A stretch of 64,000 bases of DNA from Bolinopsis microptera (Eukaryota; Ctenophora; Tentaculata; Lobata; Bolinopsidae): the NCBI RefSeq assembly GCF_026151205.1, contig NC_087074.1, forward strand, positions 15,544,962-15,608,961, written 5' to 3'. Below are positions 3,001-42,401 of this stretch, piece by piece. The notes beneath the pieces are model-generated. The model saw nothing but the letters and a program-made list of their open reading frames with translations. It was not told the DNA's origin and did not search any database. Both the position numbers and the translations under genes were made by a program. Each line of letters opens with the position of its first letter. Within the stretch, counting starts at the first letter, position 1.

Positions 3001-5448
3001 CCCTAGATCTGATGTCATTGCAAAGAAGAAGAGAACGGTATTTAATCATCAACATGTGGAAAGTTCTGCATTGCAAGTGCCCTAATGATATTGGTATCCA
3101 GTTCTCAGTGACTCTCAGACATGGTCAAAAAGCAGTTGTGCCCAGTATAGCTAAGTCCAGCAGTCAACGTAATCAAGCACTACATGACAACTCATTTGCA
3201 GTCACTGGACCTCGATTATGGAATGTAATCCCAACACATATGCACACCATCGAGGATCCTATGCAATTCAAAGCAGCTTTAACAAACTTTGTGAAGTCAT
3301 TTCCGGACGAGCCTCCAGCTCCAGGATACAGCCGTCGGAATGGAAACTCCTTGCTGGATTGGAGTGGTGACAAAACAGTTTCTATACTGTCCGGGGGGGT
3401 CGACTTTTTCGATGGCCCGATAGAGGATTCTATGATGCCCCCACATCATCCAAGAACCAGTAGTTGAAATACATTTTAAAATAAATTAAACACTGCACCT
3501 TCTCAAGTGGAAAAGTCAACCAAGGCCACTTAAAAATTATACAAAAGATCAATCACATTCTGTTTAATAAATAATACCTTAATTTACTAACTGTTTTTGG
3601 AAAAATTAGACCTAAGACCCACTATTTAGTACCATGTACTAACTGTTTTTGGGAAATGGACAGATGACCCACCACTAAGTACAAAAGTACTAACTGTGTT
3701 TTGACCCACTACCCCAACGTCACGCACAGTACTCGGTACCCGAACCCCCCCCCCCCCCCCCCGCGATTAATATCAGAAAATCGTATAAATCTAGCAGCCC
3801 ACTTCGATCTGCAAACAGCACCGTACACTAACCTGGTGACACGATATTAGAACAGTGACGAGCGCTGCGTAGTGCACGCTTGAAGTCTCGTGATGGCACG
3901 TGTTGAGCTGCTGTGCTAGGATCTTGTGCGCAGCAGCAGGTAGTGTGCACGTGGGCACCGCGCACAAGTCGGAGATAAAGTTGTACACGTGTCTTCTAAC
4001 CTGAAATAATAATAATATTAAACAGCATAGAAGTAATATTGATCACGTGATGCCTTTCTTATCGTTTAGTTAGAAGATAGTATGGGCAAGTTTAGTCTAG
4101 TTAGGACAAAGACTGTATCACGTAATTGATTGCCTAACGCATCATGTGCCATCCAGCTACGGCCTATTATAGAAGTCATTTATAAAAGTGAGCCGACGAA
4201 TTCCGCCGAGTATTATCACCTTAATAACACCAGAATGTGTGTGTGTGTGTGTGTCTGTCTGTCTGTCTGTCCGTGTGTAATTTCCGGTCGGTTATACAAA
4301 AAAAACGGTAAGAGTTACGGGACTGATTTTTTCGGTATAGTGTCGACAAAACTCTGATGAAGCCCATAGGAAATTTATTTTTAAATCGGCCGATGGTAAG
4401 TGGTTTAATTGATGGTTTTGTACCACAAATGTTACATAAAATTGCGTGAGCAGAACGGCAAGAGTTACGGGGCTTGCTCTCTCTCTAATTACTGTGTAAT
4501 ATGTTATAGCTGCATTTAAGTAGCGTCATAATTGGATTATCCCGGAAGATTCGCTGTAATGTTATACCTTAAGCTTATTAGGGGAGGGGGGACTGTTAGT
4601 GTTTGGGGTCTGTTTGGACTGCAGAGAGAGAGAGAGAGAGAGAGTTCATACGACAATGTTATGCGTGTTTTCAAATATAATATGCGGGTGTGGTGCGGAG
4701 TTAACAAGGGTTAATTTCTATAACGATTTAAATAAAAATAGAAAGCGGTTCAAGACGGGAGTGATGAGGTGTAATACTCGGTGTTCAGACCTTATGATCA
4801 TGGAGTGTGGTGCCTCATGGCTAATAATGACTTAATTATCCACAAGAAATAACTGATTATAAGATTATTGTTTAAGAAACTATTGGGTCACCTAATGCGG
4901 GTTTTGACTCAGCGGGTAATTACTCCTACCCTTTTTAACTGCGGCAGTGAAATCCCGGCCGTAGGCCGGGTTACACTAGTATTATTATATTCTCATTTTA
5001 ATTGCGGACGTAAGATGGGGGCCAGAGTAAGAGTCCAGAGCAAGTGTGCTCTAACATAGATGTTACTGGTTTCCCCAATCATATAGTACAGTCAAATCCC
5101 GTTTACTTGTGCCTGCCCTGAGGGGTCGTTCACATATTACGTAATCAGCCGAGGGGGAGGGGGTTTCCAAATGCTTACGGTTGATTACGGGAGTGTTTGG
5201 TTGTTGATTACGTAATCAACATTTTATTTTTTACCCTCTACAATAATAACAATTTGACAATATATTTTAATTCAAATTCCACTCAATTTCACTCTGATAG
5301 TGATAAAATTTGAAATTGATCGGATATCTGACTATAAGTTAAGTAGTTTGAAAGGTGCTTGGCCGGATATAATAACAATGATTTCAGCTCATTATGATCA
5401 GGGTAGCATCAAATGTAAAGAAAAGTATTTCCAGGGAAAAAAGTCAAA

Positions 5449-5485
<37 letters not shown>

Positions 5486-8400
5486 CAGGCCATGATTACG
5501 TAATATTGCTGTTAGGAGGGGGGTGGGGTAAAAATTGCTAAAATATTGTTTACGTAAAGACGTAATATGCGAACGACCCTAACCAGCATTTTTCCAGCCT
5601 ATAAATTCTTTGCTGCCATTGTTTTTTATATAAGTTTATTGCTGTTTAATTCGGTATTATTTGATGAAAGTTTCAAATCTAATCTATGCAGAGACCTCAA
5701 ATACATAGTTTTGTTATTTTGTAATGAACCCGTTCTTAATAAATCGTTTACACCCTGTAGCACATAATGATTGTAACCTATCACAGCTTTGAGCCCGACA
5801 ATGAGATAATGCCCCTAGCTACCATTCTATGCCCCTTGATAAGTACAAGTAATGTACGTATTCAAGCTATACGCCAAGATTCTCGGCTACTCCCTTTAAT
5901 CACATAATCTCTCATTAGACAATGGGTCAATAAACCAAAAATTAGAAAACCGATTGTTTTTGACACTGAATATCTCATTCATCTATATTCTTTATTATAG
6001 GATAAAGCGTAGGTTTGTCGGACGAGACATGAACTATTTAGCATTGTTCTTACTGAAAGTGATCATCAACGATAAAGCTATAGGTGAAAAATTATAATTG
6101 TTTGAAAAATGTTTTTGTCTTGTACGTCTGAGTTTCGAGCTCTGAATTTATGGTAAAGCATTTTACCTGATAGCCGTAAATTTCAGGTTCTTACACGAAC
6201 ATAGCTAGTGAAGGAACTGCTACCCAAGTTGATACACGCCAATGGGGTGAGGCATGGAGAGCCATAGATGGCATCACTGACAATAGATGGAAACATGATG
6301 AAAGGTACCGTGAATAATGATTTAATTTGAGTCACAGTCACAATTTCCATGATATGACTTGGTTGTACCTGATAACACAGCTGAATTTAATAGTACCAGC
6401 CAATAGGGACTGCTGATAGTTTTAGCGCACGATGTTACGGCGAATTATTAATATAAAATAAACTATGGCGGCTTATTAGAGAGGTTGTACTTGTAACTTG
6501 TTTATTTAATAATATTTTTATCACCCTAAATATTATTTTCAGTAACTCTATATCCAGCACAAATTCTGCTGGAGCTAAGGCTTGGTGGATGCTTACTTTT
6601 CCTTCTCCTGTCTTCATAAGTTCCATCAAGATTTATCCCCGGTATGATTATTTTTCCAGTTATTTGAATGGGATGACTGTCCTACTAAACGACAGCAACA
6701 TCTGGACGGTAGAAGACACTAATGGGATTAGAGAGATTCTTGAAGTAAACCTTCGCGGCAGCATTGTTAAGATTATAGGAGGGAGTTGGCGTATACAGAT
6801 GGCAGAGGTGGAGATATATGGTCAGATAGATGGTACTGATATTATTATCTATCGAGTTAATAATTCCAAGATTTAAAATCTTACTTACTTTAGGTACTTT
6901 AGGTTGGTTTGGCAGGGATTGCTTCTGGACAACAGTAACTAGTACGTCCTCCATTCATTCCTGGTTAAGATCTTTCTGTAGATTCCATTCCAGGAGTGAG
7001 TTGTTGGTGATGGCGGTGTATCCTTTGGTTGGCGGGGTATCGGGAAACGTCTCCAAAAATCGAGCAAGTGATACCTTGAAGGGTCCTAGAGCAGTTAAAC
7101 TGTTCACTTGTCGTGGGAGGAGGTTCCATAGTCTCGCTGCATTCACTCCAAAGGAATTCTCGTAATGAGTGGCCACTGATCGTTGCGATTTGTTGTTCAG
7201 TGGTGGGACTATGGCTTTTATGCCATGTCGAGCGTTTTCCTTGAATACCATGTTGATGTCATTTGGAGCAAGGTCGTTTGCCATCTTCCATGTATGGATC
7301 AGGATGTATCGCTCTCTTCGCCTCTGCAGGGAGAGCAGGTCCAGCTTCTTAAGACGGTCCCAATAGTCCAATTGCTGACAACCTAAGATACGGCGAGTGT
7401 AGTTCCTCTGAACATTTTCGATTGCTTCTATATCGGTGATTTTGCTGGGGTTCCAGACCGGGCAACAGTATTCTAGCCTGCTCCTCACCATTGTTTTGAA
7501 AAGGGTGAGCATCAGGAAAGGTGATCTGTCACTGAAGACACTGAAGACCCACGATGCCATTTTCTTAGCAGTTTTCAGCATCTGATGGATATGGGGCGTC
7601 CACGAGCAGTCATTTGAGAGGAGTACTCCAAGGTCTCTGACTGTTTGCGTTGGTTCGATAATTTCCCCGTTTGTTGAGCTGTAGCTGTAGTCTTCGTTGG
7701 AGAAGGGGAGTTCTCTCAATAGCAGGGATTTATTCAGCTTGTAGTTGATAACTTCAAATTTGGTTTCGTTTAGCTGCATGTTATTTTTCAGGGCACATTT
7801 GATGACATTAAACAGATCTTCTTCACTATTATAAAGACGATAATTGAGCGTCTCTGCACGAGCAAGATAGTAAAAAGAGCGGCAGGATGCGTAGTAACGG
7901 CATGGTAACCTGTTACAGTGCATAGCAACACGGAAATATTAAAATCATTGTATTTTCAGCACGCTGCTTGTCAGTTAACTGGGATAACGTTACCGTGGAA
8001 CCTCAACTACCAGTCGATGAGGAAACCAGTGTTACCTTCAGCTGTCCTAGAAAACATGTTAACGTAGGAAGTAACACTGCTACTTGTCAAGGTGGACTGC
8101 TGAAACCGGCCCAACCTCCTAGGTGTCTTAAAACAGGTAATTTAGAAAAAAAAATCTTATAAGATGTAACATCTATTTACGCCAAATCTATCGAGGGATA
8201 TGATTTGGAGTAAATAAATCATAGGTTTTGTAAAAATTAGTTAAATGATAGTTTCTGCTTTCTTGAAAATGATAAATCCATACTGTGGTCTCTTGAAACA
8301 ACTTTAAGTTTTAAGTATGAAGTATAACAAGGATAACAAGCCATTAAAGCCGCGCATCCCTATTCAATTATGACAAACCGTGAAGAAGGTTGGCATTATG

Positions 8401-11400
8401 TGGACCAGCCGTTCTTCTCCCATGGGCAATATTATGTGGAACAAAGCAGGGTTGTGAAGAAACAAGCCCTGCCAGTGTTGATATTTGAGAGCGGACTAAT
8501 TGATAAGTGTACACAGAGGTCTTTATAAAGAGAATTATTTTAAAAGAGATTTGTTTGTTCGGCATTTTACATTTATTTTGATTTTTGAATATTGTTTTGA
8601 AATTTATTCATTTCTAAAAGCGGTTTTTTATTTTTATTCAAAAGTAATCGGAAATTAATGAAAATGTGGTGTAAGGATGAGAAAGTTCCGTCTAGTTAGT
8701 ACAAAGAATACATCACGTAATAGATTTCTTAACGCATCACGTACCATCCAGCTAGGCCTTTTAAGCAAAATTATTCGATTATTATTTGAAGTACATGGCC
8801 TGCTAAGCAACTGTTCTTGGATATAAAACCAGTCAAATTTGAGGTCACCACTCACCATCGTTAAAGTAGAAGTCTCTAAGAACGGTACTTCCCAGTCTGT
8901 GTAAATATAGCTATCTTTACACCCTGTAGCACATAATGATTTTAACCTATCACAGCTTTGAGCCCGACAATGAGTTAATGCCCCTAGCCACTGTTCTATG
9001 CCCCTTGATAAGTAATGTACGTATTCAAGCTATACGCCAAGATTCTCGGCTACTCCCTTTAATCACATAATCTCTCATTAAACAATGGTTCAAACAATAC
9101 TGAGCTACCAGAAACCGGCCTACAATTAGCACAACAATTCGACAAATCTAGAGAGCATTCCCATATCATCCTCCTAACTCATTCTGTTTTAAATGTTTTA
9201 TTTTGGAATCCAGTTCTTTATAAATCGTTTGCTTTCAGTTTTACAGAAGATAAAAATAAAGCTTTTTTTAATAATTAAACATTTAACGCCCTTATATTTG
9301 GAGCTCAAAAAAAATTGTGCCCAAAGTTTTGGTCTCAAGATTTTGGAGACGTAAGGTATCAATGCAGAGACCTCGGTTACGTAGTTTTGTTATTCTGTGA
9401 TCAATGAACGATCTCTCCAAAAAATTAGAAAACTAATCGTTTGTGACACTGAATATCTCATTCATCTATATTCTTTATTATAGGATAAAGCAAAGTTTTG
9501 TCGGACGTCGGACGAGACATGAACTATCTAGTCTTGTTCTTACTGACAGTGCTGATCAACGATAAAGCTATGGGTGAGGAATTATTATTGTCTGAAAGAT
9601 GTTTTTCTCTTCAAGTACATCTGAGTTTCGAGCTCTGAATTGATAGTAAAGCATACATTTTTTTTCAAGGAGCAGGCTTGCCACATAGGTCTGGGAGTTC
9701 CAAGCGTTTAGGCAGGGTGCTAGGTTGTGGTACACACTCAACTAGGTAGTCTGAGAGTCCGAAAATCTCCAAAAAATATATGTCATCAGAGTATGAGCCT
9801 CTGCCTGACTAACCTGTGGATAGAGTTCGCTTGGCTCTATAATTATGGCTATTTAATTATAAGCATAAAGTAACTGATAACCGTAAATTTCAGGTTCTTA
9901 CACGAACATAGCTGGTGTAGGAACTGCTACCCAAGTTGATACAGATACATGGGAGAGGCAGAGAACGCTATAGATGGCAACACTAGCAATCGTTGGAAAA
10001 ATACTGCAAGGTACTGTGAATAATGATTTAATTTAAATTAATTTGAGTCACAGTCACAAACTATGGTAGCTTGTTAGAAAGGTTATAACTTGTTTATTTG
10101 GTAATATTGTTATCACCCTCAATATTATTTTCAGTAACTCTATATCCAAAACAAATTCTGTTGGAGCTAAGGCTTGGTGGATGCTGACATTTCCTACTCC
10201 TGTCTTCATAAGTTCCATCAAGATTTATCCCCGACTTTGCTGTTCCAATTATTTGAATGGGATAACTGTCTTACTAGATGGTATCGAGACCGGGACGGTA
10301 GAGGACACTGACAGGATTAGAGAGATTGTTGATGTGGACCGTTCCGGCAGCATTGTTAAAATTATAGGAGGAGATTGGAATATACAGATGGCAGAGGTGG
10401 AGATATACGGCAAGATAGATGGTACTATTGAGTTATCTATTGAGTTAATAATTCCAAGATTTAAAATCACCACTATAAAGACGATAATTGAGTGTCTCTG
10501 CACGAGCAAGATAGTAGAAAGAGCGGCAGGATGCGTAGTAACGGCATGGTAACTTGTTACAGTGCATAGCAACAAAGAAATATTAAAATCATTGTATTTT
10601 CAGCACGCTGCTTGTCAGTTAACTGGGATAAAGTTACTGTGGAACCTCCACTACCAGTCGATGAGGAAACCAGTGTTTCCTTCAGCTGTCCTAGAAAACA
10701 TGTTAACGTAGGAAGTAATACTGCTACTTGTCAAGGTGGACTGCTGGAACCGTCCCAACCTCCTAGGTGTCTTAAAACAGGTAATTTAGAAGAAATATAT
10801 AGAAAATAAATATCTAATAAGATGTAACATCTATTTACACCAAATCTATCGAGGGATATGATTTGGAGTAAATAAATCATAGGTTTTGTAAAAATTAGTT
10901 AAATGATAGTTTCTGCTTTCTTGAAAATGATAAATCCATATTGTGGTCTCTTGAAACAACTTTAAGTTTTAAGTATGAAGTATAACAAAGATAACAAGCC
11001 ATTAAAGCCGCGCATCCCTATTCAATTATTCAACTAACTTCAACTCTTCTTTGTGATCACATCCAATATGACCGAGTGACAAACCGTGAAGAAGGTTGGC
11101 ATTATGTGGACCAGCCGTTCTTCTCCCATGGGCAATATTATGTGGAACAAAGCAGGGTTGTGAAGAAACAAGCCCTGCCAGTGTTGATATTTAAAAGCGG
11201 ACTAATTGATAAGTGTACACAGAGGTCTTTGACAGAGAATTATTTTAAAAGAGATTTGTTTGTTTGGCATTTTACATTTATTTTGATTTTTGAATAATGT
11301 TTTGAAATTTATTCATTTCTAAAAGCAGTTTTTTATTTTTATTCAAAAATAATCGGAAATTAATGAAAATGTGGTGTACTAAGGATGAGAGAGTTCCGTC

Positions 11401-14400
11401 TACTGTAGTTAGTACAAAGAATGCATCACGTAATAGATTTCTTAATGCATCACGTACCATCCAGCTAGGCCTTTTAAGCAAAATTATTCGATTATTATTT
11501 GAAGTACATGGCCTGCTAAGCAACTGTTCTTGGATATAAAACCAGTCAAAATTGAGCTGAGGTCACCATCGTTAAAGTAGCAGTCTCTGAGAACGGTACT
11601 TCCCAGTCTGTATAAATATAGCTATCTTTACACCCTGTAGCACATAATGATTGTAACCTATCACAGCTTTGAGCCCGACAATGAGTTGATGCCCCTAACC
11701 ACTGTTCTATGCCCCTTGCCTTGATAAGTAATGTACGTATTCACATAATCTCTCATTAGACAATGGTTCAAACAATACTGAGCTACCAGGAACCGGCCTC
11801 AATTAGCACAACAATTCGACAAATCTAGAGAGCATGGCTCTCCCATATCATTCTCCCAACTCATTCTGTTTTCAATGTCTTACTTTGGAATCCAGTTCTT
11901 TATAAATCGTTTGCTTTAAGTTTTACAGAAGAGAAAAATAAAGCTTTGTTTATGATTAAACATTTAACGCCCTTATCTTTGGAGCTTAAAAATATTGTGC
12001 CCAAAGTTTTGGTCTCAAAATTTTGCGGACGTAAGGTATCAATGCAGAGACCTCTGTTAAGTAGTTTTGTTATTTTGTGATCAATAAATGATCTCTCCAA
12101 AAAATTAGATAACTAATCGTTTGTGATACTGATTACTGAATATCCCATTCATCTATATTCTATATTATACTTATAGGATAAAGCAACGTTTTGTCGGACG
12201 TCGGACAAGACATGAACTATCTAGTCTTGTTCTTACTGATAGTGCTGATGAACGATAAAGTTATGGGTGAGGAATTATAATTGTTTGCAAAATGTTGTTG
12301 TCTTGTACATCTGAGTTTCAAGCTCTGAATTGATGATAAAGGAGAATATAATATCTCTTTAGTAAAGTTCAGCTCAAGCTTATTGTTAACAGCATCATCG
12401 TTTGCAAATTGAACTACTGCAATGCTCTTTATTATGGAATTACTATAATGCCCGAGGTAATGGAAATATTTACTTCCAGGGACTTGGTATTGGAGCAAGA
12501 ACGCTGGTAAATATCTGAGCAGCTACAGCGCAGGAACCGCCAAATACGACAGTCTTCTGAAGGCTCAGAGCGAATGTCTCAAACGATCCGGTCAGTTCTA
12601 ACTTGCAGTCAATTTGATGATAAATTAGAAAATTAATTGGTTATCTTGAAATTTAATACAGAAAAGATATACAGAATCTCTGGTAAAATATCAATTCACC
12701 TTAAATGCCACCTTCTCCTACTAGACTGTGGAGGTATCACGTACGAGACCATATCCAAAAAGTTCACTCTGCGAAGAGGAATCGACCTCAAGGACAGTCC
12801 CTCCAATGAAATCTCCTGGATGGCTATCTCAAGCGATGATGAAGGTAACCAATTATTTTTGGCACTAGATAGCGCCAGCTATCGATAGGTAACACTAGTG
12901 AGCGCTAATTAGTGCTAACCATCGCGTTTAGACTATCGCAAAAGAACCGTTTCCTCTATGTCAGATCATTGTCACTCTCCACCAATTATATAAAAGAAAA
13001 ATAAGAAGCATTTGTCTGATCACAGGCTGGCTCACTATCACGTGACTAATACCAGGAATTAGTGAAAACCTCATCCACCAGCTCCAACTCTTTCAGAATG
13101 CAGCTCCTAAAGCTATAGTAGGACTATATTATATACATATGATCATCTAGGAGATACTCTGAAAGACCGTCATTGGCTGCCTATTAGTTACAGAATACAA
13201 TATAAGTTATTGCTTCTTGTCTATAAATGCGGGTTCATGGGACCAGATTATTTAAGTAATATGTTTAAATATGCCAATTATAATCATCTTATCTATTTGA
13301 CTCCCGTACATCGGGACGGTACAAAACACTGGCGGAATTCGGGAGATTGTTGATGTGGACCGTTCTGGCAGAATTGTTAAGATTATAGGAGGGAGTGGGA
13401 GTATACAGATGGCAGAAGTGGAAATATATGGCAAGATAGATGGTACTGAGATTATTGTCTATTGAGTTAATAATTCCAAGATTTAAAATCACTATTACGG
13501 GTATCGGCCTTACAAAATGACAGGCCTCACAAAATGACAGCCCACATAGACCATGCTGTAGCTTAGGTTCCCTATACATTGAACCCTATTCCTTTTACTG
13601 TATGAAAGAAAAAGCATTAATTAACACTTCCCAAGGAATGATAATGACATAGAATCTATATTTCTTACATAAATATGGACGTTTTTGCTGTTCAGTCATT
13701 GCCCCGCCTAACTGTTACCCAGAATGGAGAACAAAGTTTAGAATTTAACCCCAGAAAACCAGGTACTACCATGACTTATGTCAATCAAAGACTACTCTGG
13801 TCAAATAAAAAAACTGATTTAGTGACTTTGGTAGAAGAAATGACAAAAAAATGACCTAGCCTCACAAAATGACAGTGTTATGCCTCACAAAATGACAGTT
13901 TTATTTTATGATACAAAGATGGCATATTTATATTGGATGCCCCTTGCCTAATTATTGGTATTCTTAAACCCAGTAAGCTTATGATGAGCCTAAATGTGTT
14001 TGTTTGATCATCAATTTTGATCAAAATGCCTCACAAAATGACACCGAAAAGCCTTACAAAATGACAATGTTTCAGATTGAATTACTTTCATCATCTAAAA
14101 TGGATCAGAAACAGTCAATACAAGAAGGAGTTAAAAATAATCATAATCTGACAGTTAACAATCAAGTAGCATTAAAAAAGTGCAGTTCTGATATCAAAAC
14201 TTTGATTTCAAACTCTTTGATTTCAAACTCTGAATTCAAAACTCAACGAAATAAAGCTTCTATTTTGTGAAAGCAGAGAGTAATAACAACTCCTAAAACA
14301 TGTCAAACGTTAACTAAACACTGAAAAGTGATCTATCCATATCCAGTCAGGGAAAATATCAAATATAACCAAATACTGTGTTCAAGTATGAAAACAAAAA

Positions 14401-17400
14401 ATGATTTTTACGCCTCACAAAATGACATTTTTAAAATTTTTTCAAAGTACAAAAAATGTTCCTTTTTTAATATATTCTGGTAAAAACAGAACTGGTATAA
14501 TATAAACAACATATATATCTAACAGTAAGACACGTGAAAGAATAATGAAACTTTTTCCCAAATCGGATTTGAAGTGATGCCGTTTTGGGTTGTCATTTTG
14601 TAAGGCACTATCTCACGCGAAATTGCCCAACTTTTTTTAATCATCCTTTTTCCTGTAAAAGCTATTCTAATCTTCAATCTATTATATTTATCTAACTGTC
14701 CTAGGTGAAATCAAATTTCTATAGGCTGCTGTTAAAAAAATGACAGCCGTGACGAAATTGTCATTTTGTAAGGCATTTTTTTTTGGAAGATTTCAAAGAT
14801 GACAATTTTTATCGCAAAATTTACGGTTTTTCAATCAAATCAACCCCCGGGAAGAAAAATATACCTGTTGAACTACTTATCTGGATAATAAAACATGAAC
14901 AAAACTCATTTTTGTGCATTTCAGAGCCATCTCCTTTTTCGTGTCATTTTGTAAGGCCGATACCCGTATATAAAAACGATAATTGAGTGTCTCTGCACGA
15001 GCAAGATAGTAGAAAGAGCGGCAGGATGCGTAGTAACGGCATGGTAACTTGTTATAGTGCATAACAACACGGAAATATTAAAATCATTGTATTTTCAGCA
15101 CACTGCTTGTCAGTTAACTGGGATAAAGTTACCGTGGAACCTCCACTACCAGTCGATGAGGAAACCAGTGTTACCTTCAGCTGTCCTAGAAAACATGTTA
15201 ACGTAGGAAGTAACACTGCTACTTGTCAAGGTGGACTGCTGGAACCGACCCAACCTCCTAGGTGTCTTAAAACAGGTATATTAGAAAAAAAAAATGTTTT
15301 CATCTGATTGCACTTATTCTTAAAATTTTAGCAGTATCAAAGTAGAATGTCTGATCTTAGTATTAAATATCTGATTTAAAATGTAAGATCTATTTGCGCC
15401 TAATCTATCAAGGGATATGATTTGGAGTAAATAAATCATAGGTTTTGTAAAAATTAGTTTAATAATAGTTTCTGCTTTCTTGGGTACAACTTCATTAATC
15501 AATATGAGCTGAACATAGAGAATATCATAACAAATGAACCAGAATAATGACCATACCTGCCCCCCCCCCCCCCCATACCTCCAACAGTCAACACTGAACA
15601 CAGTACCATACTTATCTCTCATACGTATGAAATGGAGAATACCCTCAAATCTCAATACAGCACCATACATCACCATACTCTCATACGTCCAGTTAGGGCC
15701 TCCATCACTACGATTTGGTTTAGAAGTTTGTTGTTTTCCACACGATGTCGTTAGCTCAATGCCCTCCTAAGCTCTTTGGCGAATCCGGGCCTTGTATCAG
15801 GATCACATGGCCCTGAGCGACCAATAGAATTGGAGCATGTTAGGGTATTTGACTTCTACCTTATGTTTTATCTACACACATGAGAGTCTAAACATCCAAC
15901 TTATGGAAATAACAGCATTGTCTACCCTACTGACTAGACACTAAGGACAGCGAATGAATCATTAGTCTTAAACAGTTCACAGCTAGTGGTTTTAGTTAAC
16001 AGCTAATGTTCGAGTGTTAGGCACTCGACGGTACTATATATATTGTCCATCAAAGTGTTTGGATTTCGATAAAAACCTAATCATATTGGTGTTAAAAAAT
16101 TTGTGCCCAACGTTTTTTTCTCCACATTTTGTGGACTTTAGTTGTTTAATGTCATAACCTCGTGATTTGTCAAACCTCACGATTTGCCAACCAAACTTTA
16201 AAAATAAATTCTCTTGACATTGATTCTTTCATTCTTTTATAGGATAAAGTTTAGTCTTATCATTTTATCGGACGTTGGAAGAGACATGAACTATTTAGTC
16301 TTGTTTCTACTGATAATACTGGTGAACGGTATTGTTAGAGGTGAGGAAGTATTAATTTGGTAAACATTTTGTTTTCTTGCTCCTCTGAATTCTTACATCA
16401 TTAATATAATCGAGATAAAACAGAATTCTGCATACTTTCATATGTATGAGACATCCCAACTCTAATATTTAGATTATGAAAGAGTTTATGAATAAGTAAA
16501 GGATTCATATTATGGACATACAATTTCAGGTTCTTACACGAACATAGCTGGTGAAGGAACTGCTACCCAAGTTGATACTTTTCCAGGGGGAGAGGCAGAG
16601 AACGCTATAGATGGTAACACTGACAATGTCTTTAATAGGTAACGTGAATGACGCCTGACCGTCGAATTTGTCGTCAAGTTTAGTGTAGTCGATGGTCATG
16701 ACTACAATAATATTAACTCGATTTAATTTTTGGTTTTCAAATTTTCTTTCTTTATGTGAAACACGTCATATAAATTAAATGTTAAGAGTTGTTCCACAAT
16801 CACAAAAAAATAAATCATAAATAATGTTATTTTCAGAAACTCTGTTTCCCACACAGTTTCTAAGGGAACTAGTGCTTGGTGGACGCTGACTTTTCCTTCT
16901 CCTGTCTTCATAAGTTCCATCAAGATTTACCCCAGAGATTGCTGTTCTGGTCATTTGAATGGAATGACTGTCCTATTAGACGACAGCAACATCTGGACGG
17001 TAGAAGACACTAATGGGATTAGAGAGATTCTTGAAGTAAACCTTCGCGGCAGAATTGTTAAGTTTATAGGAGGGATCGAGAAGAAAACCATACAGATGGC
17101 TGAGGTTGAAATATATGGCAGCATAGATGGTACTGAAATTATTGGCTATTGAATTGTATAATCAAAAATTCTAAAATCATAAACATGATATAAAACAAAA
17201 TTCCACGTACTTTCTTAGGAATGGAACATCTCAAGCTAGAAAAGTTTATGATAAAGGTAAAGCATTTACTAACAGCCATAAATCTCAGGTTCTTACATGA
17301 ACATAGCTGGTAAAGGAACTGCTACCCAAGTGAACAGTCATGCTTGGGGTGAGGCAGAGAACGCCATAGATGGTAACACTGACGGTGCTTGGAAAAATGA

Positions 17401-20400: not shown

Positions 20401-23400
20401 TCCATCAAGATTTATCCCCGACTTTGCTGTTCCAATTATTTGAATGGGATAACTGTCTTACTAGATGGTATCGAGACCGGGACGGTAGAGGACACTGACA
20501 GGATTAGAGAGATTGTTGATGTGGACCGTTCCGGCAGCATTGTTAAGATTATAGGAGGGAGTGGGAGTATACAGATGGCAGAAGTGGAAATATATGGCAA
20601 GATAGATGGTACTGAGATTATTGTTTATTGAGTTAAATAATTCCAAGATTTAAAATCACCACTATAAAGACGATAATTGAGTGTCTCTGCACGAGCAAGA
20701 TAGTAGAAAGAGCGGCAGGATGCGTAGTAACGGCATGGTAACTTGTTACAGTGCATAGCAACACGGAAATATTAAAATCATTGTATTTTCAGCACGCTGC
20801 TTGTCAGTTAACTGGGATAAAGTTACCGTGGAACCTCCACTACCAGTCGATGAGGAAACCAGTGTTACCTTCAGATGTCCTAGAAAACATGTTAACGTAG
20901 GAAGTAACACTGCTACTTGTCAAGGTGGACTGCTGGAACCGGCCCAACCTCCTATGTGTCTTAAAACAGGTAATTTAGAAGAAAAAATCTTATAAGATGT
21001 AACATTTATTTACACCAAATCTATCGAGGGATATGATTTGGAGTAAATAAATCATATGTTTTGTAAACATTAGTTTAATGGTAGTTTCTGCTTTCTTGAA
21101 AATGATAAATTAATATTGTGGTCTCTTGAAACAACTTTAAGTATTAAGTATGAAGTATTAAAAGGGTAACCAGCCATTTAAGCCGCGCATCCCTATTCAA
21201 TTATTCAACTAACTTCAACTCTTCTTTGTGATCACATCCAATATGACCGAGTGACAAACCTTGAAGAAGGTTGGCATTATGTGGACCAGCTGCTCTTCTC
21301 CCATGGGCAATATTATGTGGAACAAAGCAGGGTTGTGAAGAAACAAGCCCTGCCAGTGTTGATATTTGAGAGCGGACTAATTGATAATATTGTGTGCATG
21401 CAGAGGTCTTGGACAGAGAATTATTTTAAAAGAGATTTGTTTGTTCAGTATTTTAGATTTATGTTGATTTTTGAGTAATGTTTTGAAATTTTTTCACTTT
21501 TAAAACCGGTTTTTTATTTTTATTAAAAATAATCGGAAATTAATGAAAATGTGGTGTAAGGTTGAGAAAGTTCCGTCTAGTTAGTACAAAGAATACATCA
21601 CGTAATAGATTTCTTGACGCATCACGTACCATTCAGCTAGGCCTTTTAAGCAAAATTATTCGACTGTTATTTGATGTACATGGCCTGCTAAGCAACTGTT
21701 CTTCGATATAAAACCAGTCAAAATTAGAGGTCACCATCGTTAAGGTAGCAGTCTAAAAGTACGGTACTTTACAGTCTATATAAATATAGCTATCTTTACA
21801 CCCTGTAGCACATATGATTGTAACCTATCACAGCTTTGAGCCAAACAATGAGTTAATGCCCCTAGCTACCGTTCTATGCCCCTTGATAAGTAATGAACGT
21901 ATTCAAGCTATACGCCAAGATTCTCGGCTACCTCCTTTAAGAATCACATAATCTCTCATTAGACAATGGTTCAAACAATACTGAGCTACTAAGAACCGAC
22001 CGACAATTAGCACAACAATACGATAAATCTAGAGAACTCAGTTCTCCCATCTCTACTCTCATCTTGTACTGACTACAATGTCTTACTTAAGAAACCCGTT
22101 CTTTATAAATCGTTTGATTTCAGTTTTACAGAAAAGAAAAATAATGCTTTTTTTGATGATTTAACATTTAACACCCTTATGTTTGGAGCTCAAAAATATT
22201 GTGCCCAAAGTTTTGTTCTCAAAATTTTGCGGACGTAAGGTATCAATGCAGAGACCTTGGTTACGTAGTTTTGTTATTTTGTGATCAATAAACGATCTCT
22301 CCAAAAAATTAGAAAAATAATCGTTTGTGAAACTGAATATCTCAATCATCTATATTCTTTATTATAGGATAAAGCGTAGGTTTGTCGGACGAGACATGAA
22401 CGATTTAGTCTTGTTCTTACTGATAGTGCTGATGAACGATAAAGCTATAGGTGAGAAATTATAATTGTTTAAAAAATTTTGTTGTTTTGTACGTCTGAGT
22501 TTCGAGCTCTGAATTTATGGTAAAACATTTTAACTAATAGTCGTAAATTTCAGGTTCTTACACGAACATAGCTGGTGAAGGAACTGCTACTCAAGTTGAT
22601 ACTTATCCAGGGGGAGAGGCAGAGAACGCTATAGATGGTAAAACTAGCAATCGTTGGAAAAATACTGCAAGGTACTGTGAATAATGATTTAATTTGAATT
22701 AATTTGAGTCACAGTCACAAACTATGGTAGCTTGTTAGAAAGGTTGTAACTTGTTTATTTAATAATATTTTTATCACCCTAGATATTATTTTCAGTAACT
22801 CTATATCCAAAACAAATTCTGTTGGAGCTAATGCTTGGTGGATGCTGACATTTCCTACTCCTGTCTTCATAAGTTCCATCAAGATTTATCCCCGACTTTG
22901 CTGTTCCAATTATTTGAATGGGATCACTGTCTTACTAGATGGTATCGAGACCGGGACGGTAGAGGACACTGACGGGATTAGAGAGATTGTTGATGTGGAC
23001 CGTTCCGGCAGCATTGTTAAAATTATAGGAGGAGATAGGGATATACAGATGGCAGAGGTGGAGATATACGGCAAGATAGATGGTACTATTGAGTTATCTA
23101 TTGAGTTAATAAATCAAAGATTTAAAATCACCACTATAAAGACGATAATTGAGTGTCTCTGCACGAGCAAGATAGTAAAAAGAGCGGCAGGATGCGTAGT
23201 AACGGCATGGTAACCTGTTACAGTGCATAGCAACACGGAAATATTAAAATCATTGTATTTTCAGCACGCTGCTTGTCAGTTAACTGGGATAAAGTTACTG
23301 TGGAACCTCCACTACCAGTCGATGAGGAAACCAGTGTTACCTTCAGCTGTCCTAGAAAACATGTTAACGTAGGAAGTAACACTGCTATTTGTCAAGGTGG

Positions 23401-26400
23401 TCTGCTGAAACCGGCCCAACCTCCTAGGTGTCTTAAAACAGGTATATTAGAAAAAAAATATGTTTTCATCTGATTGCACTTATTCTTAAAATTTTAGCAG
23501 TATCAAAGTAAAATGTCTGATCTTAGTATTAAATATCTGATTTAAAATGTAAGATCTATTTGCGCCTAATCTATCAAGGGATATGATTTGGAGTGAATAA
23601 ATCATAGGTTTTGTAAAAATTAGTTTAATAATATTTCTGCTTTCTTGGTTACAACTTCATTAATCATTATGAGCTGAACATAGGGAATATCATAACAAAT
23701 GAACCAGAATAATGACCATACCTCCAACAGTCAACACTGAACACAGTACCATACTTATCTCTCATACGTATGAAATGGAGAATACCCTCAAATCTCAATA
23801 CAGCACCATACAGCACCATACTCTCATACGTCCAGTTACGCCTCCATCACTACGATTTGGTTTAGAAGTTTGTTGTTTTCCACACGATGTCGTTAGCTCA
23901 ATGCCCTCCTAAGCTCTTCGGCCAATCCGGGCCTTGTATCAGGATCACATGGCCCTGAGCGACCAATAGAATTGGAGCATGTTAGGGTATTAGACTTCTA
24001 CCTTATGTTTTATCTACACACATGAGAGTCTAAACATCCAACTTATGGAAATAACAGCATTGTCTACCCTACTGACTAGACACTAAGGACAGCGAATGAA
24101 TCATTAGTCTTAAACAGTTCACAGCTAGTGGTTTTAGTTAACAGCTAATGTTCGAGTGTTAGGCTCTCGACGGTACTATATATATTGTCCATCAAAGTGT
24201 TTGGATTTCGATAAAAACCTATTCATATTGGTGTTAAAAAATGTTTGCCCAAAGTTTTTTTCTCCACATTTTGTGGACTTTAGTTGTTTAATGTCATAAC
24301 CTCGTGATTTGTCAAACCTCACGATTTGCCAAACCTCACGATTTGCCAACCAAACTTTAAAAATAAATTCTCTTGACATTGATTCTTTCATTCTTTTATA
24401 GGATAAAGTTTAGTCTTATCATTTTATCGGACGTTTGAAGAGACATGAATTATTTAGTCTTGTTTCTACTGATAATACTGGTGAACGGTATTGTTAGAGG
24501 TGAGGAAGTATTAATTTGGTAAACATTTTGTTTTCTTGCTCCTCTGAATTCTTACATCATTAATATAATCGAGATAAAACAGAATTCCGCATATTTTCAT
24601 ATGTATGAGACATCCCAACTCTAATATTTAAATTATGAAAGAGTTTATGAATAAGTAAAGGATTCATATTATGGACATACAATTTCAGGTTCTTACACGA
24701 ACATAGCTGGTGAAGGAACTGCTACCCAAGTTGATACTTTTCCAGGGGGAGAGGCAGAGAACGCTATAGATGGTAACACTGACAATGTCTTTAATAGGTA
24801 ACGTGAATGACGCCTGACCGTCGAATTTGTCGTCAAGTTTAGTGTAGTCGATGGTCATGACTACAATAATATTAACTCGATTTAATTTTTGGTTTTCAAA
24901 TTTTCTTTCTTTATGTGAAACACGTCATATAAATTAAATGTTAAGAGTTGTTCCACAATCACAAAAAAAAATCATAAATAATGTTATTCTCAGAAACTCT
25001 GTTTCCCACACAGTTTCTAAGGGAACTAGTGCTTGGTGGACGCTGACTTTTCCTTCTCCTGTCTTCATAAGTTCCATCAAGATTTACCCCAGAGATTGCT
25101 GTTCTGGTCATTTGAATGGAATGACTGTCCTATTAGACGACAGCAACATCTGGACGGTAGAAGACACTAATGGGATTAGAGAGATTCTTGAAGTAAACCT
25201 TCGCGGCAGAATTGTTAAGTTTATAGGAGGGATCGAGAAGAAAACCATACAGATGGCTGAGGTTGAAATATATGGCAGCATAGATGGTACTGAAATTATT
25301 GGCTATTGAATTGTATAATCAAAAATTCTAAAATCATAAACATGATATAAAACAAAATTCCACGTACTTTCTTAGGAATGGAACATCTCAAGCTAGAAAA
25401 GTTTATGATAAAGGTAAAGCATTTACTAACAGCCATAAACCTCAGGTTCTTACACAAACATAGCTGGTGAAGGAACTGCTACCCAAGTGAACAGTCATGC
25501 TTGGGGTGAGGCAGAGAACGCCATAGATGGTAACACTGACGGTGCTTGGAAAAATGACGCAAGGTAATGTATGTAGGTATAGTGGATGATAATAACTTAA
25601 CTTAACCAAAATTGGATATAATGTTATGAATTAATCTAAAATAAAGTTAATCACTAATACAATGCGACTATAATAGCTAAATAGAGGCTTTTAGCGATGT
25701 AAAGTGTATACTGTATATTTGATAAAATTAATGATCTTTCTAACATTACAATTTACATACTTGTCACTTATCATACTACTATACTGATTGTGACAGTAAT
25801 ATTATTTTCAGTAACTCCGTATCCCACACAAATGCTGGCGGAACTAATGCTTGGTGGATGCTGACTTTTCCTTCCCCCGTCTTCATAAAATCCATCAAGA
25901 TTTACCCCAGAGTTCCTGACGGCGGTGTTCTGGATGGGATAACTGTTCAACTGGACGACATCGATACCGGGACGGTACAAAACACTGGCGGAAATCGGGA
26001 GATTGTTGATGTAAACCGTTCCGGCAGAATTGTTAAGATTATAGGAGGGAGTGGGAGTATACAGATGGCAGAAGTGGAAATATATGGCAAGATAGATGGT
26101 ACTGAGATTATAGTTTATTGAGTTAAATAATTCCATGATTTAAAATCACTATTATAAAAACGATAATTGAGTGTCTCTGCACGAGCAAGATAGTAGAAAG
26201 AGCGGCAGGATGCGTAGTAACGGCATGGTTACTTGTTACAGTGCATAGCAACACGGAAATATTAAAATCATTGTATTTTCAGCACGCTGCTTGTCAGTTA
26301 ACTGGGATAAAGTTACCGTGGAACCTCCACTACCAGTCGATGAGGAAACCAGTGTTACCTTCAGCTGTCCTAGAAAACATGTTAACGTAGGAAGTAACAC

Positions 26401-29400
26401 TGCTATTTGTCAAGGTGGACTGCTGGAACCGGCCCAGCCTCCTAGGTGTCTTAAAACGGGTAAATATTTGAAAAATAAATCCCTTAGTGTTAACTGTTAG
26501 TCCCATATTTTGTTTTTGCATCTGATTGTCCTTATTCTTAAAATTGTATCAGTAAAATAGCTGCTAAAGTAATGTGAGATCTATTTACGCCTAATCTATC
26601 GAGGGATGTGATTTGGAGTAAATAGTTCACATGTTTTACTAAACTTAGTTTAGTGACAGTTTATTGAGAATATAACCTGATATAAATGTAACTTATACCA
26701 AACTTGTTAACGTATACCTGCTTATATGTATGTACCACACGTAAGTTTTATAATGCCCAAGTTGTTTCTGTTTTGCTAAACTTCGTTAAATCACCACTTA
26801 CTCAACTAGTATGATAACAAATATTCCCTAATATGGCCTATGGGTATAACTTCATTACGAGTTGAAGCAGCATGCTAATCTCTCATAGGTCCAGATAGGG
26901 CCTAAACCACTACGATTTGATTTAGATGCTTGTTGTAAACCTGAAACCACACGATGTCGTTTGCTCAATGCCCTCACAAGAGCTCCTATTAAGATCACAT
27001 GGCCCTAAGCGACCAATAGAATGAGAGCACTAATATAGTACCATACAGCACAGAATATACCCCTCGTACAGCATCACATATTTAGCATGACAAGGGGGAG
27101 GGGGGGAGATGCAAGGCTGAGATAAAATCACCATGTCGAGAAGCTTGCTACCATTGTACTAGACAATAGCTGGAGCCTGCATTCTCTTGAAGAGATCATT
27201 AAACCTTTTAGCATCACAGTGCTATTAACCCAGCTGGAAATGGGTTATTCAAAAGATTGAAGCCACGGCTTGTTAGTTAGTCGTTCACCAAATCTGCATT
27301 TTGACCTGCCTCTGTGTTGTGAGATGTCTCTACGTTTGTTCACAGTTAAATGCTAAGCAGCAACCAGAGCTGGTTTCACAAAGCTCCAGAGCATCAAGGT
27401 GTGTTTTAGAGGATAGGCTGAAAACTCGTCATAAAATATTTCATATTATTATCGTTGCAAGTAGGAAACTACTGGACCGAAAATCATTTATTTAAAAATT
27501 AAATAGTTATTTTAAAGTAGATAAGGAAAGATTTATCCAGAGGTTAAAAACTTGGTTTCCATTCGGCCTCAACTTAGTTAACCCCTTTATTTTGCCCCTC
27601 CTGGGCAACATGTTATGGGATTGTTGCTAGACGCATGATAGTGATGTTTATCGTTTAGTGTAGTTATACTGCAGGGGCTAATACTATTCAGTACTAGCTG
27701 GAGTGATGTTTATCGTTTAGTTAGTTATACTGCAGGGGCTAGTACTATTCAGTACTAGCTGTAGTGATGTTTATCGTTTAGTGTAGTTATACTGCAAGGG
27801 CTAGTACTATTCAGTACTAGCTGTAGTGATGTTTATCGTTTAGTGTAGTTATACTGCAGGGGCTAGTACTATTCAGTACTAGCTGTAGTGATGTTTATCG
27901 TTTAGTGTAGTTATACTGCAGGGGCTAGTACTATTCAGTACTAGCTGTAGTGATGTTTATCGTTTAGTGTAGTTATACTGCAGGGGCTAGTACTATTCAG
28001 TACTAGCTGTAGTGATGTTTATCGTTTAGTGTAGTTATACTGCAGGGGCTAGTACTATTCAGTACTAGCTGTAGTGATGTTTATCGTTTAGTGTAGTTAT
28101 ACTGCAGGGGCTAGTACTATTCAGTACTAGCTGTAGTGATGTTTATCGTTTAGTGTAGTTATACTGCAGGGGCTAGTACTATTCAGTACTATTCAGTAGT
28201 GATGTTTATCGTTTAGTGTAGTTATACTGCAGGGGCTAGTACTATTCAGTACTACTGCAGGGGCTAGTACTATTCAGTACTACTGCAGGGGCTAGTACTA
28301 TTCAGTACTACTGCAGGGGCTAGTACTATTCAGTACTACTGCAGGGGTTAGTACTATTCAGTACTACTGCAGGGGCTAGTACTATTCAGTACTACTGCAG
28401 GGGCTAGTACTATTCAGTACCAGCTGGAGGAGTCACGACCTTCCAGACCCCAGTGCTTAGGCTTTTTTGTGAGATTGTTGTTTGTGAGTATAGCATTTTG
28501 TTGTCTAGTTTGTTTTTTTATTTACTGACCACTGTGTCATACCTCAGCAATTTGTTATTATGTTCAACATCAGAACTCATCATACCTGCTGCTGAAGATT
28601 GGCTCATAGCTGCTGTCTAGTGCATACACTCTAGAGACGTTATTGTAAGCCACATTACAACATTTGCTCAAGGCTCTCCTAAGCCTTTAGACCAATCCAG
28701 ACCTCGTTTTGAGATCACATGGCTCTTAAGCTCTTAATAACCAATAGAATTGAAGCGTTTTAGCACGTGTGAGTTATAACTCATATGCCAACATGTAAAA
28801 AAGTCTAGGTTTTCTACTAATGAGAATAACGGCACTGTCTAGTATTTACAGGCCAAGTACAAGGAGCAGGTAATGGATCATTAGTCTAACGTCACGTCAT
28901 AGTATATCACTAGGAGAGGGTTTTGTTAACATTTAGTTGTCGAGTGCTAGCAGCACTCAGTGCTATGATCTGATGTTGACTATACTGTCTAGTGGTCGAA
29001 CGGTTTGTCGTCGATTGCTCTGGAACTTGTAGGTAATTGAAAAGTGTGCTCTTCTTTTGTAGTGTTGCACTCTTGGATACTGATGGCCAAACTTTGGTAA
29101 AGCCTATTTGTTCACTAATTATACTTAATTGTTTAGGATGAAAGTGTAGTTCTATCGGAGGAGATATGCGCTATTTCTACTTGATCGTACTGATGGTACT
29201 GATGTACAATGAAGCAAGATGTGATACAGGTGAGGACTGATGAAGAAATATTGTAGATAAACACTAAATTGACTGTTCTAATTCTATCTTTTGCTTGTGA
29301 CTAAATTATTGTTGTGTAATTTGATATAATAAGCGAAAAATGTTTCAAATAAATAATCGTTGAGCTCCTTCAATTTTAAAACGACAATACCTTCCAGGTT

Positions 29401-32400
29401 GGCAGCCTACTCCGAATAAAGACAATCCATTTCCATACAATCTAGACAGGTTCCCTATGCAGATACGGACGACGACAGCTACTCAAAATGTTTGGATACA
29501 AGGCAACGTTGACCAGTCTTCCTCACCCGTAGATTCTTATGCTGGAATACTTTTCAGCTTAGCTTGGCAAATGAGTGACAACAGTATCTGGCTGGCGTAC
29601 CACAACCTAGACTATGGCGAGGAATTCTTCAACCCAACACCAACCTGTTCAGCCCGGGGAGGAGACTGGACCTTGTTCAAGTTGAAGAGGAAGATGGTCC
29701 TAAGATGTGGCAATGAAGATGTCTACGAAATCCTTTACAAAGACCTTTACGACAGCAAACTTGAACCTTTCTTGCAGAGGAGCGTTAAGGCGTTAAGCAA
29801 AACAGTCACAAACATATGGTTTGACCATGAGCATGCGGACAACGCAGAGTATAAAAGGGCAGGTAACATACCTACTTAACATACAACCTATAAACTGTAG
29901 CTTACATTATGCTTACTGTACAATAATACTACTATTATGCAATAATAGTATTTAATGAGGATCCAAAATCAAATTTTTACAGATCAATAAATAAATTCAA
30001 TGATTTTTAAGAATTCAAAACCTACCATCCCACCAGACTACTGCTACAAAGGTTACAAGATGGCATATGACGGTGGATGTGACGAATGCCCAGAAAACAC
30101 CTACAATACCAGGCTTGACAATACTGTCCAACCTTGTACTTCCTGTCCTGACAATATGATATCTCCTCCTGGATCTTCTTCAGTTGATGATTGCAAGGAA
30201 AAAGGTAGGCAGGCACTCTTCTTAAGAGAAGATACTTGTTATTTTCTTAAATAATTAATGGTACTTGATACCTATAATTACCTATACAATAAAAGAATTT
30301 TTTGACTCATTTCTTGAGCCAGAAAATCAAAAAGTTTTGTGCGCTCTCGATGTATCAACCATTTCTTTATTTGTGATATAATGTCGTTTGTTTGGTTGAA
30401 TAATTTTCATTTAATTGATCTGGATCTGACACATGTAATTCTGTAATGATCTTTTTAATTTCTAATTTCTAATTGCGTCTGTAGTGTATGATCTGTAAGT
30501 TCTGTCGTTGCATCTTGACTATGCCCGGTATCTATTTAATATTTTGAAGTTTTTTCGTGTTTTTGATATTTAACCATAATATTTTCTTTCAGGATACAAG
30601 ATACCAATAATGGCAGTGCTAGTGAATAATCAGCGAGAGAATCACAAACCAGGATATATGTTCGATGATAATACGGCAACATACTATCATCATAAATATA
30701 ATAAAATCCCAGGGGTCAAGGTTTATTTCGGCTATGAAGTTGAAGTATCCAGGGTAAAGATAACCAACCGACTCGACTATGCGAATTACCTCCCAAATTT
30801 GAAAAGCACAGCTGTTTCCGTGATGCTGAAGGACGGTGGAGTTGACGAATGCGGAACCCTAGGAGACGACAACACTATCGAGTACAAGACCTTCACCGTA
30901 TTATGTGGCAACAAAAGGGGGATAGGACTAGTGGTAGAGAGACCAAGCAGTGTTAATGGCTGGTGTATTTCAGAGCTGGAGATATATCACTATACTGGTA
31001 CGGTACAGTTAAACTAGACTAAAGAGTAAAGATATTTTGTACAGTACTCTAGAATAAAATCTCTATCTTTATTTATAATTGATCGACCAACTTTATTTGA
31101 TATTTAATCACGGATTATAAAATCCATGACAAAATCAGTAAAACACCATGTTCTCTCAGGAATGCAGGACGTCTGCGAAGCACCCACGTATTACAACCAA
31201 CTCACGAATGCATGTGAATCACCACCAGCGTGTAACTCGGGGGATCGGGAGGTATTTAACATTAACAACGGGGCCTGTGAGAAGTGTCCTAAGAAGTCAG
31301 TGTTTGTCGAAGGAGCATGCATCAAGATAAGTAAGTTACTCGGCTGGAGGTGGGGAGACGTTTTTGATTATTATTTCAGGTTGAATTTCTCAGCTACATG
31401 TTTACGTAAAGCAGTTCGAACAATAAAATGACAATAACAATGACCGACCATTTGAATTTTAAGTAAACAAATCGAGACTTTGTTTGCTTAAAAGTTATTA
31501 CAGTACACTTCAGCTCACTCCGTAAAGAATAAATTAATAACCCGTCCCTCAGGCATCAAAGATGTTTAGATCCATTTCAAAGTCAAACTTCAATGAGAAT
31601 CCAAACCTTATTCATTATTAGAAGATTTTCCAGAAATTAACAGGCCAATTTCCATAACTTAAGTTATTTCATCTAATGATTGTTAATGACGTACCTGATA
31701 CTGCTTGGATCGGCCGAGGGACCAGACACAGGACTCGTCCAACAGCTGGATAATGCTCTGACACTGCTCTGTTTGTTGGAGAATCTGGACTATCATTCTC
31801 AATGTGCTGCCTGGGAATAGAGTGTTACACAATGAATGTGCTCCTGATTATGTATAGATCTTGATATTATGTGCAGTAGGTTGTGAGTTACAGTTTCTTT
31901 TAAATGACGTTTCGAATCATAATTTACGGTATAATACTTATTGCTGGATTTTGGTGAATGATAATTCAAGATGAGGTCACAAACCATTCTCTTCAGTATT
32001 TGCCAACTTATATTAATTAATTATTGATATTATGTAACATAAATATTTTTAGATTCGAAGAGCTGAAATCTGACGACAGCTGCAAGCAACAATGATTTCA
32101 GAATTCAGCATCAGGATGATGAGAAGGTCAGGAATGTGGACACTTTTTTAGTTAATATTAGTTCCGGGGTTTTTAGTTAATATTAGTTCTGGGGTTTTTA
32201 TGTTTGCTTTCTGGTGTGCCTTCCATATCAGCATTGAGTTAAATTGGATGAGTGGGCATTTTAATAACTAGTGAGCAGTGACAGTGAATTAAGTTAAGGC
32301 AAAGCTATTCTCAGCTGTATTGTATCTAATAGTTAATTTTCTTTTTCGCTGATGAAGTGGAATTTTAAGAACCATTCAAGGGAGAATCAGTGAACTCTAG

Positions 32401-42079: not shown

Positions 42080-42401
42080 AGTTTTACTGCAGTAGGAAAA
42101 TTTGTCTAGTTAGATGATGAACATAAAATGACACACAAACCAAATACATTCCTCCGACATTGTAACAATCAAAATAACATTTATTATACCTACTTCATAA
42201 TTAACTGAATTATACAGAGTAAGTTGTTGTACTAATATTAGGTTTATTTAGGTTAATTTCTTCTTCACCGATGGCCTGCTTTAGATAATTCTATGTGATG
42301 TTACTGAGTGCCTACAACTGTTATCTCATCAAAGACGTCGATTCATCTGAATCACAGTAACCTCTTTGTAAAGTATAGTATAGTAAAGCATAGTATGATA
42401 C

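Follow-up and report, generated by a model that had tools for sequence, protein, structure and literature searches.

Antisense F-type-lectin-like genes nested within one long intron of listerin in the ctenophore Bolinopsis microptera

Genes lying within introns of other genes have been described in ctenophores and insects. In Hormiphora californensis, 2,357 nested genes were reported in 1,654 host genes, with 1,109 located beside a transposable element (PMC8527503). Among insects, a cluster of TipE-like genes occupies the last intron of CG18675, and a large intron of flotillin-2 houses GMC oxidoreductases; the TipE-like genes are regulated apart from their host, with which their expression correlates poorly (PMC3240667). 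Here, we describe a window of 64,000 nt from the genome of Bolinopsis microptera (contig NC_087074.1; C3:15544962-15608961), by which we mean the whole stretch of DNA that was analyzed. In this window, the minus-strand gene for listerin carries within its intron 7 eight plus-strand units, designated A to H, of which A-G form one family of predicted secreted F-type-lectin-like proteins. The locus is likely to represent a tolerated nested array, i.e., independent plus-strand units in the long intron of an intact listerin gene that expanded by duplication and exchange.

Similar to the nested genes of H. californensis, the units are located wholly within one intron of another gene (PMC8527503), and similar to the TipE-like and GMC clusters, paralogues are nested in a single intron of an unrelated conserved gene (PMC3240667). 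The Hormiphora counts correspond to approximately 1.4 nested genes per host by our calculation, whereas here eight units, seven of them from one family, share one intron. The insect clusters comprise other protein families, and the TipE cluster occupies both strands, whereas the listerin array is confined to the plus strand. Recent mosaic exchange, which is found in the listerin-intron array, is not described for the TipE-like and GMC clusters in the parts of PMC3240667 that deal with them. The A-G proteins resemble F-type lectins in their profile matches to FBP32 and other F-type lectin domain structures and in their single or tandem domains, and F-type lectin domains combined with CCP modules are known in other animals, whereas the A-G proteins differ in lacking an intact fucose motif and in being small proteins with a CCP-like tail (PMC5712786). 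The initial annotation presented an array in a housekeeping intron as unusual, a view that is not supported in light of the published clusters of nested paralogues (PMC3240667) and the number of ctenophore nested genes (PMC8527503). Thus, the lectin-like array in the listerin intron is real and belongs to a kind of arrangement already known in animals; searches of open-access papers, one of them naming listerin, found no report of this particular locus.

The host gene has the following structure within the window.

39053-39006, 38772-38605, 38459-38370 and 38233-38134, minus strand: listerin exons 1-4, with GT/AG sites, frame and a match to human listerin
37919-37789 and 37490-37394, minus strand: listerin exons 5 and 6, with GT/AG sites, frame and a match to human listerin
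31695..31810, minus strand: listerin exon 7, ending in phase 0 with the donor gtacgt
4001..31694, minus strand: listerin intron 7 of 27,694 nt, hosting the nested genes
3833..4000, minus strand: listerin exon 8, beginning in phase 0 with the acceptor tcag
2402-2262, 2115-2054, 1909-1792 and from 1666 to beyond the window edge, minus strand: listerin exons 9-12, with an open frame and splice sites

All twelve exons have GT/AG borders and the frame is unbroken throughout. The first 413 residues of the spliced product were compared with human listerin (3j92 chain w), giving an alignment of query residues 7-276 (E-value 1.2e-37) that is gapless where exons 7 and 8 are joined, after residue 250, and the N-terminus matches the Pfam domain Ltn1_1st (E-value 1.2e-23). 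Exons 9-12 were placed beyond the aligned stretch, which ends at residue 276, and the long exon-12 frame, searched against PDB by itself, had no matches. UBC-like (PF23009, E-value 1.3e-16) and RING pieces (above cut-off) are located 1.6-2.0 kb left of the window, and the exons between exon 12 and the RING piece were modelled in part. With this N-terminal domain and a UBC-like and RING C-terminus, the gene is, by its sequence, listerin; it looks intact and is apparently single-copy. Introns 1-5 measure 136-298 nt, intron 6 5,583 nt and intron 7 27,694 nt, followed by introns of 1,430, 146, 144 and 125 nt. In genome-wide searches, which covered 264,652,675 bases in 232 contigs, a query with listerin exons 6-9 matched four places, all of which are these exons themselves, a non-match elsewhere being no proof of absence. 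The Pfam listerin model had no match in the genome, which is uninformative, as none of the 14 control genomes matched either. The separation of exons 7 and 8 by 27.7 kb with phase-0 continuity, as proposed in the initial annotation, is confirmed by the GT/AG sites and the gapless alignment, and its claim of an intact host gene is supported by the in-frame exons, the human listerin match, Ltn1_1st and the UBC-like and RING pieces.

A plus-strand hydrophobicity scan yielded 14 starts, eight of which were kept as signal-peptide-like exons, since a single exon is repeated in seven of them and a phase-1 GT closes each of the eight. Each of the eight plus-strand units listed below begins with such an exon.

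6029..8162, plus strand: gene A, 221 residues, signal-peptide-like exon 6029-6083, lectin exons 6187-6304 and 6543-6832, CCP-like tail 7960-8162
6955..7938, minus strand: open frame resembling reverse transcriptase (by eye) within the last gene A intron, without a Pfam match
9519..10780, plus strand: gene B, A-like plan, its first lectin exon (9894-10010) frameshifted
12212..15275, plus strand: remnant of gene C, signal-peptide-like exon at 12212, lectin remnant 13313-13444, tail exon 15099-15275
16286-16340, 16530-16638, 16837-17129, 17289-17406, 17641-17927 and 18112-18344, plus strand: gene D, 364 residues, two lectin domains
19712-19766, 20080-20197, 20322-20608 and 20793-20995, plus strand: gene E, 220 residues
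22396-22450, 22554-22671, 22796-23082 and 23265-23473, plus strand: gene F, 222 residues
24445-24499, 24689-24797, 24994-25286, 25446-25563, 25812-26098 and 26283-26500, plus strand: gene G, 359 residues, two lectin domains
29166..31428, plus strand: gene H, about 425 residues or more, signal-peptide-like exon 29166-29229, domain 29398-29862, ephrin-receptor-like exon 30037-30204, F5/8-like domain 30593-30997, Cys-rich exon from 31160

All eight units are flanked by listerin exons 7 and 8. Members of the A-G family combine a signal peptide, one or two F-type-lectin-like domains and a CCP-like tail; in A, E and F, a single lectin domain is encoded by two exons. Genes A, D, E, F and G have open frames over all exons and canonical GT/AG sites. 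Gene B is probably a pseudogene, and intact copies exist of the first lectin exon that is frameshifted in it. Gene C retains its signal-peptide and tail exons but has lost most of the lectin domain, of which 44 residues are left; its first lectin exon was not found, and a reverse-transcriptase-like stretch (by eye) adjoins its lectin remnant. As judged from these models, six of the eight units appear intact (A, D, E, F, G and H), with A-G comprising five intact and two broken copies. The initial claim of eight secreted lectin-type genes in antisense orientation therefore holds for the number of plus-strand signal-peptide-like exons, for the orientation opposite to listerin and for the presence of signal-peptide-like first exons with lectin-related sequence, but not for eight equivalent genes, as B is frameshifted, C is truncated and H has another architecture. 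The shared orientation does not amount to eight independent observations, since tandem duplication copies orientation and there are at most two founders (A-G and H). Every unit possesses a signal-peptide-like exon of its own together with a tail exon running into a stop, so that the simplest reading is independent plus-strand transcription of each. The Rfam search of the whole window had no matches at gathering scores, and a genome search for the published spliced leader of Hormiphora (38 of its 44 letters), allowing three mismatches at most, found none, a result that is neutral or speaks mildly against close kinship with Hormiphora. An open frame common to the regions downstream of A, B, D and E was considered as a further exon and rejected, as ten further genomic sites match it, including one within a 1,466-residue open frame; it is presumably a piece of a mobile element.

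When PDB was searched with a profile built from lectin domains of A-G (five domains), six distinct sequences fell below an E-value of 0.1, namely FBP32 as the best match (6.1e-21), two proteins named Sm-hPAF, two fucolectin-related proteins and lectin 1k12. We take all six to be F-type-lectin-domain proteins, in part from their names and from PMC5712786. Gene D matches the Pfam domains F5_F8_type_C_2 (E-value 6e-17) and F5_F8_type_C (E-value 5.1e-13, above the cut-off), and gene E falls slightly under the cut-off for F5_F8_type_C (27.4 vs 28.2 bits). On these profile matches, the A-G domains are homologous to F-type lectins. C-type lectin identity of the array was rejected, the C-type model having at least 25 matches in the genome, none of those listed being on this contig. 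The fucose motif of F-type lectins is HX24RXDX4(R/K), and departures from it may signal other specificity or lost binding (PMC5712786). None of the eight A-G domains (seven full domains and the second exon of B) fits this motif, spacings of 22-30 included, the strict form as scripted having used a spacing of 26; gene H does not fit it either, and a loose form fits the two relatives tested on contig C1. Since the motif is intact in none of the eight domains, we class A-G as F-type-lectin-like and do not claim fucose binding. The site of the cation motif h2DGx (x = N, D or S), inspected by eye, reads AIDGN in five of seven domains (D1, D2, E, G1 and G2), AIDGI in A and AIDGK in F. Four cysteines are visible by eye in all seven copies of the CCP-like tail.

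Gene H is longer and more distant, with an architecture different from that of A-G, and its 3' end has two options, a splice near 31330 or a stop at 31428. In the spliced gene, the F5/8 and ephrin matches are below the Pfam cut-offs, and the ephrin-receptor-like exon alone is just over its cut-off (23.7 vs 23.1). The N-terminal domain of about 155 residues has no Pfam match. This domain is found at six further genomic sites (contigs C5, C6 and C7) with 35-45% identity, thus forming an unnamed domain family, and the module order of gene H is identical in two relatives on C7.

The growth of the array is recorded in a duplicated block extending over 7823..26481, the two parts of which align as follows.

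7823-12340 and 17975-22524, plus strand: first part of the duplicated block, 92.0% over 4,624 columns
14969-18309 and 23135-26481, plus strand: second part of the duplicated block, 96.2% over 3,374 columns

A block of approximately 10 kb was thus doubled, its first copy holding extra sequence in gene C. Synonymous divergence (dS) of the lectin domains is 0.22-0.50 in 18 of the 21 pairs among seven domains, gene B being excluded owing to its frameshift, and it is low in D1-G1 (0), D2-G2 (0.027) and E-F (0.105). For the tail exon, dS is 0-0.10 in all 21 pairs among the seven copies. These values, together with the two aligned parts of the block, bear out the recent duplication suggested in the initial annotation. 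Sliding identity among six copies (14 of 15 pairs, with C and the pair A-B not included) jumps abruptly inside genes, with no gradient. For example, the last lectin exon of D and E is 62-85% identical in its first part and 90-100% beyond, whereas B and E match, fall to 78-80% and match again. Exchange between copies would be the simplest reason for a uniform 3' end beside a diverged lectin part. The ratio of nonsynonymous to synonymous divergence (dN/dS) is 0.35-0.73 across the 18 divergent lectin pairs.

Outside the locus, the second lectin exon has at most 44% identity over most of its length, with short partial matches up to 56%, and the short first lectin exon reaches up to 71% over 31 residues. 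The lectin-domain relatives on C1 adjoin thrombospondin-type repeats (by eye). The closest tail-exon matches are found on C4, with 65-66% identity (62-63% in a separate alignment). They belong to a second small cluster (C4:14062500-14072000, minus strand; 62-66%), in which each is located downstream of another secreted-looking domain and an adjacent gene has an apparent membrane span (by eye). In this C4 stretch, the lectin domain has no match, and the cluster has no Pfam matches. As the partners of lectin and tail differ between C1, C4 and the array, these phase-1 modules seem to be variously combined from place to place.

The evolutionary scenario that we favor would begin with two types of secreted-protein genes (A-G and H) that settled antisense in a very long listerin intron, where the A-G type would have multiplied locally through duplication of blocks and piecemeal exchange among copies. 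The listerin RNA would remove the entire 27,694-nt stretch as a single intron, and the nesting would be tolerated rather than functional. The products would probably be soluble glycan- or surface-binding proteins with a variable lectin domain and a constant CCP-like tail. Several observations weigh against this scenario. Despite its four cysteines, the tail exon has no Pfam match, and the GT conserved after it in all seven copies allows splicing to a further exon. Polyadenylation hexamers located 22-55 nt past the stops of A, D, E and F speak for the scenario, though as weak evidence: such hexamers are found about once per 454 nt on the plus strand, A, D and E probably inherited theirs from a single site, and the stop of gene G has no hexamer within 400 nt. 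Opposite orientation keeps the polyadenylation and splice signals of nested genes off the host strand, but the host-strand AATAAA is not depleted in intron 7 (40 vs 27.2 expected), so that nothing suggests adaptation to host transcription. GTAAGT is under expectation on both strands (2 vs 8.6 on the host strand and 4 vs 9.4 on the array strand; 30 resamples, a single hexamer). In favor of the scenario, Fisher tests of constraint have p below 0.05 in four of five pairs (0.035, 0.0013, 0.032 and 0.041; 0.32 for A-E), with fewer nonsynonymous than synonymous changes; these are uncorrected tests on non-independent pairs, and a single one survives correction for five. Weak constraint on A-G is a fair reading, and the averages give no sign of positive selection.

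The same tests could be taken to indicate that the array is mostly decaying, i.e., that it is a burst of copies of which two are dead and the others are weakly constrained. The broken genes B and C, the departure of all eight domains from the fucose motif, the non-significant test and the single one left after correction agree with such decay, which we nevertheless regard as unlikely given that five of the seven A-G genes keep canonical splice sites and a frame that stays open through every exon and that dN/dS of the 18 divergent pairs is in the range given above. Coupling of sense and antisense transcription, by which the array would interfere with elongation or splicing of listerin, or the reverse, and recognition proteins would be linked to ribosome rescue, is less plausible still. 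Its appeal lies in eight units being fully antisense within one intron and in effects that nested genes can exert on their hosts in human cells, namely intron retention, exonization and cryptic polyadenylation. On the other hand, nested TipE-like genes and their host correlate poorly (PMC3240667), host-strand AATAAA is not depleted, and an orientation inherited through duplication is weak evidence.

Since, at the level of domains, phase-1 boundaries flank the signal peptide, lectin domain and tail alike and a donor-like GT follows the tail in all seven copies, a mix-and-match locus can be envisaged, where read-through transcripts would join any signal peptide, run of lectin domains and tail, so that seven units would yield many secreted binders; we consider this improbable. 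Misplacement of the array in the listerin intron by an assembly error could be prompted by the tandem repeats of the region, but it is the least credible of these explanations: the window contains no N letters, the queried listerin exons were found once in the genome, all of them at this locus, exon order and frame are correct on both sides, and the error would need to have hit the intron on both sides. A nested array of independent units tolerated by listerin thus remains our preferred explanation.

The surroundings of the array include several further elements. Minisatellites with overlapping 62-nt and 28-nt units (98% matches) are located between G and H at 27639..28420. Listerin intron 6 (window 32586-36944) contains a minisatellite that is purine-rich on the plus strand, its main parts being 80-84% purine, with a GC skew of up to 0.63 in 2-kb steps, and a 107-nt unit is present twice, with 99% identity, between listerin exons 5 and 6 (37562-37781). 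Directly upstream of listerin, a parkin-like gene occupies 39580-42110 on the minus strand, resulting in two ubiquitin-ligase genes head to tail; it has a RING0-type zinc domain (PF17976, E-value 1.5e-24) at 41071-41433, the remainder being judged by eye.

The locus offers a clear and checkable case of a recognition-type family that expands and exchanges segments inside an intron of a conserved quality-control gene. It provides a good natural experiment on whether a host gene pays a price for a large nested array on its opposite strand. With its variable lectin domain and homogenized tail, the array is a concrete locus for the diversification of secreted binders in an early-branching animal.

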